Assembly (NCBI RefSeq): GCF_003967015.1 | Contig: NZ_AP017560.1 | Location: forward strand, 2,790,001-2,854,000 | DNA: 64,000 bases | Direction: 5' to 3' | Source of the DNA: Pseudanabaena sp. ABRG5-3 | GTDB lineage: Bacteria; Cyanobacteriota; Cyanobacteriia; Pseudanabaenales; Pseudanabaenaceae | Shown here: piece by piece, positions 48,636 to 52,616 of the stretch | Numbering within the stretch: position 1 is the first letter of the stretch | How the letters are laid out: each line of letters opens with the position of its first letter | Notes under the pieces: generated by a model | What the model was told of the DNA's origin: nothing | The model's input: the letters and a program-made list of their open reading frames with translations, nothing else | The model's database searches: none | Program-made: the position numbers and the translations under genes

Positions 48636-49220
48636 ATGGAGAAAGGGAGATTAGAAGCCTTTAGCGATGGGGTGATTGCCATTATCATCACCATTATGGT
48701 GCTGGAATTGAAGATTCCCCATGAAGCGGACTTAGCTGCACTGCGACCATTGATTCCAGTGTTTCTGAGCTATGTACTCAGCTTTATTTATCTTGGCATT
48801 TACTGGAATAACCACCATCACTTGTTACAGGTAGTTCGACAGGTGAATGGAAGTATTCTATGGGCAAATCTGCATCTACTATTTTGGTTGTCACTAATTC
48901 CTTTTGTGACGGGATGGACAGGTGAAAATCATTTTGCACCTGCGCCAGTGGCCCTGTATGGAATAGTGCTACTGCTCTCAGCGATCGCCTATTTCATCCT
49001 CAGCCGTGTGTTGATTGCACATCATGGCAAAGATTCTACCCTAGCGATCGCCCTTGGACGAGACTTGAAGGGTAAGGTGTCAGTAGCCATTTATGCCCTA
49101 GCAGTTCTCCTTTCATTTGTGAACTCATGGTTGGCTTTCTCAATGTATGTTTTAGTTGCGATCATGTGGCTAATACCCGACCGCCGCCTTGAAAAAGCAA
49201 TAAGCTCCTATGGAGAGTAA
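48636..49220 (+). CDS. TMEM175-family potassium channel-like protein
   Basis: The 194-residue protein begins with the FSDGVIAIIITIMVLELKIP signature that lines the TMEM175 pore, and has six hydrophobic helices with an intervening YLGIYWNNHHHLLQ motif. Bacterial TMEM175 proteins (DUF1211) form potassium or cation channels as tetramers of one repeat. It is neighboured by the two-RCK channel gene. Confidence 0.9.
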   Translation: MEKGRLEAFSDGVIAIIITIMVLELKIPHEADLAALRPLIPVFLSYVLSFIYLGIYWNNHHHLLQVVRQVNGSILWANLHLLFWLSLIPFVTGWTGENHFAPAPVALYGIVLLLSAIAYFILSRVLIAHHGKDSTLAIALGRDLKGKVSVAIYALAVLLSFVNSWLAFSMYVLVAIMWLIPDRRLEKAISSYGE

Positions 49221-49279
49221 ATCTATGAGAATGCCATTGTTTTATGGCTAGATTATAGTGTTCTTTGTGAATAAATTGC

Positions 49280-50065
49280 TTAAAGCTCTATTAAATCTCT
49301 TAGAAAATTCACTAAAGACTGAATAGCTGGGAGCTGTTGAGCAGTATCGTCACTAATCCATTTGTCATCAGCAATGCTAGTGGTATTAGTTTTACCTGGT
49401 TTAAGAACACTTGCTACTGTTGCTATAGTTGCCTTGTCTTTGTCAAATCTCTTCCATTTTATTTCAGAGAACTGATTGATATAATCCTTAGCTCTTTTCA
49501 TGTAAATTGGATAAGCAATCTCACCGCACTCACAGAGCAAGGTATCTAAAACCCCTTGATCTGAATTATTTGGTAGTATGTATATCCCTAAATTTAGTGA
49601 ACCTTTCACTACAGTACCAGCCTGATCGGGAAAGTTTGGGAAATATGCTTTTAATTTATCGCAGTATGTTTTAGCTATTTCATCAGGAGTCTTTTTATCG
49701 GCATCAAGAATAATTCCAAAGCCTGAAAAAGCTTCAGGATCAACATTAGATAGAGCATCACTTATATTTTGAAGAATGCTATTATCTTCTACAATCAATT
49801 TTTGGAGTAGGTTACTACCTTCCCCAACATAGATAGCTATCGACAAATCATCAGTATGCAAAATTGTTGGCATATTCAGCCTTGTGTAATACTTCTTTGT
49901 TTTTCTAGGATTGTAAGAAGGAACAAGTGCTTGCCATAAGGATTCTAGTGATTCTGTTTCCTGATCCCAAGGAGCAAAGCCTAGGAATTTATGCAAAACT
50001 CTTGCTACAAAAGCTTGGTCATGGTTACCTTCAACGACTATCAATACACAGCGTCGATTCATCAA
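49280..50065 (-). CDS. TOPRIM-domain protein (DUF3226), likely nuclease partner
   Basis: The 261-residue protein shows TOPRIM acidic residues: E12 in LIVVEGNHDQAF and D121/D123 in GFGIILDADKK. The remainder resembles DUF3226. TOPRIM proteins of this kind (OLD, AriB) cut nucleic acid or tRNA in a metal-dependent way. Its ATG overlaps the stop of the AAA gene by 4 bp, so the two form an operon. Neither gene contains a HIP1 site, unlike neighbours, which suggests a recent arrival. Confidence 0.8.
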   Translation of the reverse strand: MMNRRCVLIVVEGNHDQAFVARVLHKFLGFAPWDQETESLESLWQALVPSYNPRKTKKYYTRLNMPTILHTDDLSIAIYVGEGSNLLQKLIVEDNSILQNISDALSNVDPEAFSGFGIILDADKKTPDEIAKTYCDKLKAYFPNFPDQAGTVVKGSLNLGIYILPNNSDQGVLDTLLCECGEIAYPIYMKRAKDYINQFSEIKWKRFDKDKATIATVASVLKPGKTNTTSIADDKWISDDTAQQLPAIQSLVNFLRDLIEL

Positions 50066-51219
50066 CGAACCTCCATACCCAAATTTTCTCGCAGGCGTTT
50101 TAATCTAGTCCAGTCATGTCTAACTACTTTTGTTTGATTTTCTTTTGGTTCAAGTCTATAAAGTACTAAATCTAATGATTCATGATTGACAGCTAATAAA
50201 GAATCTATGGCTTCTAAGCTATGAGTAGTTGCAAAGATTTGTACATTCATTTCTTTGCTCCATTTTGCTAACCATTGAAAAGAATTTTGTAAGGCTTCTG
50301 TATGAATTGTTGATTCGAGTTCATCAATTAATAAGATACCTCCTTTTACACTCGCAAGTTTTAGAGCAATATGCAGTAAGCGCCGCACACCATCACCAAA
50401 TGAACTTAAAGGAACAAGCCCAAGCTTCTTGTGTTGAATATAAATGTTGATTCGAGATGATGTTGATTCAGGAGGCAATAGAATCTCTATATCTGAAATA
50501 TTTTGATCCATTTGCATTAATAATGCTAATACATCAGATTTAAAATTATAAAAACTCGCATCTGACAACAATCGAATCTGCCCAATATTTGAACGATGTG
50601 ATGTTGGTGTGACTATAGATATAGGCAATTTAAATTCTTTTTTTGTAGACTTCTTAGATAGAAGAAAATCATTCTCCCAGAGTTGATATTTTCCAGAAAA
50701 AACAGGGGCTTGTTCATCAAATAGCATTAGTTGATCATCATATAACTCAATTTGTAAATCTAAACCTTTTCTTACTTCTTCTTCTTCTTCAATAACTTGA
50801 TCATCTTCATCATCACCATTAATTGGATCATTCATATGAATAAATTGTTTTCTTTTTTCAGGAAAAAACATTCCTTCAATATCTTCATACACTGCTTTGA
50901 TTCTCTTAACAGCAAAATCCCCATCTCCAGATATAAAAATAGTACCTATATGAGGTATATCTTTATTAAAAAGCCATCTTAGAGCATCAAGTGGTAGTGT
51001 ACGGGAAGAACTAAATATTTCTTCTCTTTGTCTAGCAGTACTTATCCAACCTCTTAAATCTAGTGGATCACAATAAATTGATAGAGCTTCAAGAACACTA
51101 GTTTTGCCTGAATTGTTAACACCAACAAGCAAATTAATTTGTCCGAGGTCTTTTAGCTCAAGTTCTTTTAGACCTCGGAATTGGTGAATTGTGATGTTTT
51201 CTAGGTTTCTGTTAGTCAT
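50062..51219 (-). CDS. OLD-type AAA ATPase (AAA_21)
   Basis: The 385-residue protein has Walker A VGVNNSGKTS (33-41), the signature-like SFGDGVRRLLHIALKLASVK, Walker B GILLIDELES near residue 295 and TTHSLEAIDSL as the switch His. An acidic insert (DDEDDQVIEEEEEVRKGLD) occupies the middle. ABC-like ATPases of the OLD/AAA_21 group often operate with TOPRIM nucleases in anti-phage systems (OLD, PARIS, Gabija). The first gene of a two-gene operon, 33 bp downstream of rlmD on the same strand. Confidence 0.87.
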   Translation of the reverse strand: MTNRNLENITIHQFRGLKELELKDLGQINLLVGVNNSGKTSVLEALSIYCDPLDLRGWISTARQREEIFSSSRTLPLDALRWLFNKDIPHIGTIFISGDGDFAVKRIKAVYEDIEGMFFPEKRKQFIHMNDPINGDDEDDQVIEEEEEVRKGLDLQIELYDDQLMLFDEQAPVFSGKYQLWENDFLLSKKSTKKEFKLPISIVTPTSHRSNIGQIRLLSDASFYNFKSDVLALLMQMDQNISDIEILLPPESTSSRINIYIQHKKLGLVPLSSFGDGVRRLLHIALKLASVKGGILLIDELESTIHTEALQNSFQWLAKWSKEMNVQIFATTHSLEAIDSLLAVNHESLDLVLYRLEPKENQTKVVRHDWTRLKRLRENLGMEVR

Positions 51220-51251
51220 TGGCTTATCTTAACGCAGCAAGACTTTTTGAT

Positions 51252-52616
51252 TTATGCCTTAGTCAAAAAGGCGATCGCCTCAACGTGAGAAGTCTGTGGG
51301 AAGAAATCAATAGGTTGAATGCGGGTGAGTTGATAGCGATCGCCTTCACACAACAACTTGAGATCTCTGGCTTGGGTAGCGGGATTACAACTGACATAGA
51401 CAATACGCTCAGGAGCATTTTCGCGGAGGAAAGTAATTACTTCAGGTTCACAACCTTTGCGGGGAGGATCGAGAATCACGATATCGGGTTGTAAATTGAG
51501 AGTGCTGATCAATTCTTCAACTTTACCAGTGTGGAAAACCACGTTATCAATACCGTTGAGTTCAGCATTGAGTTTGCCTTGGGCAGTAGCCTGTGGTTGG
51601 ATTTCAATCGCGATCGCCTGTTTGACCTGTTCGGCTAATGGTAAAGCGATCGTGCCAATGCCAGCATAGGCATCTAAGAGAACTTCCGTCCCTTCTAGTT
51701 GCAATTCTGATTCGATAATGTTGAACATCTTCTCTGCTTGCTCTGTATAAACTTGAAAGAAGGTATCACCACGCAGACGGAAGGTTAGACCCGCAAATTT
51801 TTCTAAGAGATAGTCTTTACCCGCAATGCAACGGCTCTCACGTCCAAAAATGGCATTGGTTTTATCAGGATTGCAATTGAGAATTACACCCACAACCTTG
51901 TCGTAACGCTCTAGCCATGTCTGGGCAAATACTCCTAAATTCGGCACATCCCAATCACGGGCAACAATGGTTATCAGAATCTCGCCTGTATGTCTGCCAA
52001 TACGCAGTCCTAAATGGCGTAGTAAGCCTGTATGAGCATTCTCATCATAGATTTCCCAGCATTGATTATGGATATCCATTTTCAATTCAGCAAGCATCGG
52101 ATCGAGGCGTTCATCTTGGGCAGGGCATTGATTGAGATTGACGATTTTATGGCTTCCTTTTTGGTAGTAGCCCGCTTTGAGATTGCCATCTTTGCCAGTA
52201 GCTAGGGGATAGGTCACTTTATTGCGATAATGCAAGCTATCTTTCGCACCGACGATTGGGGAAATGAGTTCTTCTAAAAGATCAGCATCAAAGCCGCCTA
52301 TTCTTTGTAATGCTTGGAGAACGATGTTTTGCTTGGTTCGCAGTTGGGTAGGATAGCTGACGGCTTGCCACTGACAACCACCGCATTTGTCAGCAACAAT
52401 GCAATTAGGACGGACGCGATCGCTTGATGGCGTTAAAATTTTTTCAATACTTGCATGGGCAAAGTTTTTTTTCACAAACTCTAGCTTTGCAGCAATGCGA
52501 TCACCGGGAACAGTATTAGGAACAAAGATCGCGATATTTTCATAACGTCCGACTCCATCACCGCTATCAGCAAGATCGTCAATGGTAAGCGTAATTTTTT
52601 GTCCCTGTAGTAGCAT
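51252..52616 (-). CDS. rlmD: 23S rRNA (uracil-C5)-methyltransferase, RumA/RlmD type
   Basis: The 454-residue protein has an N-terminal TRAM domain (TIDDLADSGDGVGRYENIAI), a Cys cluster (NCIVADKCGGCQWQAV), and the SAM-dependent core with DAYAGIGTIALPLAE, DPPRKGCEP and the catalytic VSCNPATQARDLK. RumA methylates U1939 of 23S rRNA; RumB/TrmA relatives use other sites, so the exact position is not certain. Confidence 0.88.
   Translation of the reverse strand: MLLQGQKITLTIDDLADSGDGVGRYENIAIFVPNTVPGDRIAAKLEFVKKNFAHASIEKILTPSSDRVRPNCIVADKCGGCQWQAVSYPTQLRTKQNIVLQALQRIGGFDADLLEELISPIVGAKDSLHYRNKVTYPLATGKDGNLKAGYYQKGSHKIVNLNQCPAQDERLDPMLAELKMDIHNQCWEIYDENAHTGLLRHLGLRIGRHTGEILITIVARDWDVPNLGVFAQTWLERYDKVVGVILNCNPDKTNAIFGRESRCIAGKDYLLEKFAGLTFRLRGDTFFQVYTEQAEKMFNIIESELQLEGTEVLLDAYAGIGTIALPLAEQVKQAIAIEIQPQATAQGKLNAELNGIDNVVFHTGKVEELISTLNLQPDIVILDPPRKGCEPEVITFLRENAPERIVYVSCNPATQARDLKLLCEGDRYQLTRIQPIDFFPQTSHVEAIAFLTKA

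Follow-up and report, generated by a model that had tools for sequence, protein, structure and literature searches.

The chief new point to emerge from the window (the whole 64,000-nucleotide stretch of Pseudanabaena DNA analysed here) is one of location: a two-gene ATPase-TOPRIM operon lies just 3' of rlmD, at the place where sibling species hold other defence gene pairs or the remains of them. Our best reading, argued by analogy, is that this operon is a PARIS/AbiL-like candidate pair at an integrase-free swap site.

On the minus strand, in a common orientation, the window contains an rlmD-type 23S rRNA (uracil-5-)-methyltransferase gene (51252..52616; Pfam tRNA_U5-meth_tr and TRAM), whose 3' end is the putative swap site; a 32-nt gap between its stop codon and the ATPase start (51220..51251), common to two further operon-bearing genomes (G005, G019) and preserved in a relic in a third (G002); a gene encoding a 385-residue ABC/SMC-like ATPase (50062..51219), the protein proposed to act as sensor and to hold the nuclease; and a gene encoding a 260-residue TOPRIM protein of the DUF3226 family (49280..50062, counted from ATG), the proposed effector. 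A TMEM175-like gene (48636-49220), itself patchy in the genus (8 of 26 genomes), converges on the operon from the opposite side. The ATPase matches Pfam AAA_15/AAA_21 (3.8e-21 and 4.6e-20) and its partner matches DUF3226 (1.5e-29), with the Toprim model marginal (0.08). Both reading frames, their families, the Walker motifs and the TOPRIM acidic residues are thus as an earlier note on this DNA described them; the close, co-oriented placement behind rlmD and the presence of other systems there in relatives go beyond that note. A consensus scan detected no promoter in the 32-nt gap, a result of little weight, sites in the region being no commoner than in shuffles.

Both proteins retain their characteristic motifs, all encoded on the minus strand. 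Across 18 homologues of the ATPase, K39 and T40 of Walker A (GVNNSGKTS, residues 33-41, 51097..51123) and D299 and E300 of Walker B (ILLIDE, residues 295-300, 50320..50337) are invariant; a signature, GDGVRR, and an H-loop, TTHS, are also present. Across 15 TOPRIM homologues the same is true of E11 and D15 in the motif VEGNHD (50018..50035), of D120 and D122 in the DxD motif (49697..49705) and of K210, while position 173 is D or E and T174 is conserved (D173-T174, 49541..49546). Together these residues resemble those that, in Burkholderia OLD, bind the two metals or assist catalysis (E400, E404, D455, D457, E508 and K562; PMC6755086), in which E400 and E404 have the spacing of E11 and D15 (PMC6755086). 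D173-T174 would be the counterpart of E508 (metal B) and K210 that of K562, these last two being matched by place in the sequence rather than by residue-level superposition. TOPRIM residues are numbered here from an ATG at 50062, a likelier start than the TTG at 50065 from which the DxD pair becomes D121/D123. The choice also decides the overlap of the two genes, given earlier as 4 bp: that figure holds for the TTG start, and the ATG start leaves a single nucleotide (TGATG).

In each of the three operon-bearing Pseudanabaena genomes (the window genome, G000, as well as G005 and G019), the operon begins about 33 nt past the rlmD stop. Downstream of rlmD in G002, which is closely related to the window genome, 44 nt match the operon leader and the first ATPase codons and are followed by a transposase-like ORF; this is an operon relic. 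Septu stands between rlmD and leuB in G008 and G022 (PtuA 1.4e-149 and PtuB 3.4e-65 in G022, the genome tested, to which the G008 DNA is 90% identical). HEC-03 occupies the site in G012 (ATPase 2.8e-122, PIN-like partner 7.7e-34), where about 54 nt from the 5' end and about 53 nt from the 3' end of a Septu module are retained before leuB. A Septu end is also retained in G019, G003 carries a 313-nt HEC-03 end 4.7 kb behind rlmD, and in G010, G017 and G020 rlmD lies directly beside leuB with no insert. Across these siblings, then, the rlmD site has gained and lost three kinds of ATPase-nuclease module. The broader proposition that rlmD is trailed by defence genes across all cyanobacteria was rejected, no ATPase pair following rlmD in 20 genomes of other genera (ORF starts judged by eye). 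Separately, in an unrelated cyanobacterium (G045, L148), a probable MNT/HEPN pair was seen downstream of rlmD.

The synonymous divergence of these genes bears on how the operon came to be there. Between the window and G019, the TOPRIM gene has a dS of 0.47 (near 0.2 for the greater part of codons 1-140) compared with 1.32 for rlmD and 0.99 for acetyl-CoA synthetase (ACS), indicating at least one exchange between Pseudanabaena lineages. Between the window genome and G005, the operon values (0.92 and 1.07) equal that of rlmD (1.07), which is host background. Since this divergence is at background, the site is the same in three species and the relatives in the collection scan are all cyanobacterial, the operon is not explained by one single foreign arrival. 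The recent transfer suggested in the earlier note therefore stands as movement between lineages of the genus and falls as a single foreign event. A rival for the history only is that the operon is an old, vertically inherited resident of the rlmD site, lost many times and with little or no horizontal exchange. This would account for the G005 values as well as for the site and 5' leader common to the three species; it is contradicted by the low TOPRIM dS between the window and G019 and by the rlmD clades of G005 and G019, which are separate and have Septu or HEC-03 in their nearest members, and we regard it as unlikely. In G002, ACS and a TrkA-type gene lie side by side, about 240 kb away from rlmD; relative to that genome, the junction in the window is a rearrangement.

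One genome, G019, preserves what may be traces of entry. Between its operon and leuB stand 92 nt that are a second copy of the 3' end of rlmD, most similar to that of G020 (87%). Upstream of about -240 nt its rlmD resembles those of its sisters G008 and G017, and the last stretch is nearer other lineages (compared in windows, by eye). This pattern fits entry by recombination within rlmD and illegitimate joining at the distal edge, and it is the second rlmD 3' end that suggests this mode of joining. Generalizing, immunity modules of two genes, an ATPase and a nuclease (PDC-M38, Septu, HEC-03), could be swapped without an integrase at the 3' end of Pseudanabaena rlmD. Each would come in on DNA bearing a donor rlmD 3' end, with homologous recombination at one edge and an illegitimate join at the other, would borrow rlmD transcription, and would leave short relics when lost; a DUF3226 pair at metH would be a second such site. 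We hold this full scenario tentatively, at somewhat less than an even chance.

That other pair, an ATPase and a DUF3226 protein about 30% identical to those of the window, lies behind metH in the window genome (L093, G000:C1:4350000-4366000; near 4359122-4360830). The metH-linked pair occurs in at least 10 Pseudanabaena genomes, in two classes of allele, with identities of about 90% and 60%, that cut across host kinship. Its TOPRIM dS is about 0.55 compared with 1.25-1.55 for metH, in two same-allele-class pairs for which metH was compared (these dS figures come from five of thirteen comparisons).

Base composition also sets the operon apart. The window contains 118 HIP1 sites where 0.7 would be expected, with none between 49052 and 51270, so the HIP1-free patch described earlier is real (49052..51270, no strand assigned; HIP1 count and GC scan). 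Its value as a sign of transfer is weaker than had been proposed: a HIP1-free stretch of 1.94 kb has P = 0.028 for a given stretch (Poisson estimate), and the gap is only the second-longest in the window, the longest being 3.3 kb. We accordingly rejected HIP1 absence as sole proof of transfer and used GC and dS instead. Low GC is the stronger signal: no stretch of 1.94 kb in the window is poorer in GC than the operon patch, at 0.341 (mean 0.433, sd 0.027), and the next lowest separate stretch has 0.363. Operon GC is below that of the flanks in other cyanobacteria too (15 loci measured, 14 of which lack HIP1), indicating that low GC goes along with the operon genes.

Rather than standing at this place in all relatives, the operon occurs in just 3 of 26 genomes of the genus, and across the phylum in 25 of 386 sampled genomes and 19 of 142 genera (E 1e-30). 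Relatives in the genome contig collection number 18 loci, all cyanobacterial, with the ATPase directly upstream of the TOPRIM gene in every one. No homologues were found in viral contigs, phages or plasmids, and with all 18 collection loci cyanobacterial we rejected a non-cyanobacterial or mobile-element donor. In other cyanobacteria the flanking genes are for the most part ordinary ones, not rich defence islands. In Phormidium tanganyikae (L105:2433-6762), rbcL and an rbcX-like gene precede the operon, which lies where rbcS would be expected. In a member of another family (G042; L091, G042:C4:278000-294000), the TOPRIM gene is split by about 2.6 kb that includes transposase-like fragments.

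Among known systems the closest likeness is to PDC-M38, a candidate ATPase-nuclease system in PADLOC-DB. Both of its models are matched here by adjacent, overlapping genes, the ATPase by PDC-M38A (1.5e-72, residues 4-385) and the TOPRIM protein by PDC-M38B (6.2e-16 for the best model; 6e-12 for another, residues 4-259); PDC-M38 is a computed, in-silico candidate and the B match is modest (6e-16). A literature search found no paper naming or testing PDC-M38 and none mentioning DUF3226. The next known system for the ATPase is AbiL of Lactococcus (AbiLi, 3.4e-40, weaker than PDC-M38A), likewise an ATPase-TOPRIM operon. No AbiLii model is among the PADLOC matches of the TOPRIM protein up to E = 1. 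AbiLii belongs to the RloB family (PMC10440598), whereas the protein here is DUF3226 and has no profile similarity to RloB (hhalign probability 0.7% against 12 RloB proteins). The match of the ATPase to AriA of PARIS (1.2e-22) is of a generic AAA_21 type. PARIS also pairs a separate ABC ATPase with a TOPRIM nuclease that follows it and bears two-metal-type motifs, but its nuclease, AriB, is of the DUF4435 family. DUF4435 (PF14491) gives no Pfam match in the TOPRIM protein, and the hhalign comparison with 9 DUF4435 proteins (probability 0.7%, 16 columns) extends no further than a 16-residue motif, upholding the earlier assignment to DUF3226 and not to the DUF4435 of PARIS. By sequence the pair is neither PARIS nor AbiL; it is likened to both in its working, not in identity. 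OLD and Gabija (GajA) likewise combine an ATPase fold with a TOPRIM domain bearing E, DxD and second-metal residues, the last with a putative counterpart here, but fuse the two, which are separate genes here and in 18 of 18 collection loci; no GajB-type UvrD-like helicase lies beside the pair, its neighbours being rlmD and TMEM175. Septu has a related ATPase fold and the same rlmD site in sibling species, and differs in having PtuB where the pair has a TOPRIM nuclease (PADLOC gives no PtuB match for the second protein).

AlphaFold models built from alignments of 15 (TOPRIM) and 18 (ATPase) relatives have mean pLDDT of 80 and 78, respectively. The TOPRIM model matches archaeal PH0156 of Pyrococcus (2p62; Z 15.2 over 223 residues), and matches the C-terminal TOPRIM domains of OLD proteins at Z 7.3-8.2, near the common-arrangement level and above unrelated rows. 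In the PDB, phmmer found no close solved relative of the TOPRIM protein and a profile search gave PH0156 only, at a marginal E of 0.028. The ATPase model matches condensin, Rad50 and SMC heads, PtuA and GajA (VIA Z 17-20; up to 19.6 for condensin/Rad50/SMC), with PtuA at Foldseek 5e-12 and Z about 18. By predicted structure, then, the nuclease sits closest to PH0156 and to TOPRIM domains of the OLD type, the ATPase to PtuA and to Rad50 and SMC heads. The central part of the ATPase (about residues 100-180) is 18-50% identical between operons, compared with 80-100% over most of the ends. It may be a fast-changing sensor; it also overlaps a low-confidence, acidic, probably disordered stretch of the model, and its variability may instead reflect relaxed constraint and not an arms race.

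The PADLOC matches to PDC-M38A/B, the patchy distribution and the defence pairs of siblings at the same spot make this a good candidate for an anti-phage system, as had been proposed, and we think a defence function probable. In PARIS, three AriB TOPRIM nucleases are held by a hexamer of the ATPase until a phage trigger sets them free to cut tRNA (PMC12409363); AbiL and related AAA-TOPRIM_OLD pairs behave as toxin and neutraliser in toxicity assays, and abortive infection is the role suggested for such pairs in the same study (PMC10440598). We borrow these mechanisms only by analogy, because the TOPRIM family here differs from those of AriB and AbiLii. On this PARIS- or AbiL-like model of a two-gene, PDC-M38-like module, the SMC/ABC-type ATPase would oligomerize and keep the TOPRIM nuclease inactive, sense a phage protein or activity, and in response free or activate the nuclease, probably a two-metal OLD/RNase M5-type enzyme, whose cleavage of RNA (likely tRNA) or DNA would halt the infected cell's growth. 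That the protein is an active nuclease is more probable than any precise target. Placed 32 nt past the end of rlmD, co-oriented with it and with no integrase of its own, the module would probably be read through from rlmD, and could be traded between species at a fixed swap site via recombination in or beside that gene.

The toxicity results, the strict pairing and the overlapping genes would suit a stand-alone toxin-antitoxin (addiction) module, in which the ATPase neutralises a TOPRIM toxin with no dedicated phage trigger. We consider this distinctly improbable, given that the authors of the toxicity work themselves suggest abortive infection (PMC10440598), that addiction does not predict a site in common with Septu, and that easy loss of the operon (the G002 relic, the broken G042 gene) fits it poorly. 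A housekeeping pair for DNA repair or recombination, a RecF/Rad50-like ATPase with a TOPRIM nuclease, is very improbable: Rad50 and SMC heads are among the best fold matches and NCBIfam RecF matches the ATPase N-terminus (1.4e-12, below cut-off), but so sparse a distribution within genus and phylum, low GC and loss by relic are untypical of housekeeping genes.

The preferred reading, a defence pair, adds a natural history to the PDC-M38 immunity candidate and to its TOPRIM effector family, DUF3226, for which no literature was found, and it defines a two-protein set that can be tested. With three types of system and their relics at one site in one genus, the 3' end of rlmD is a place to search for new systems, and suggests that small defence modules may swap without integrases or prophages.
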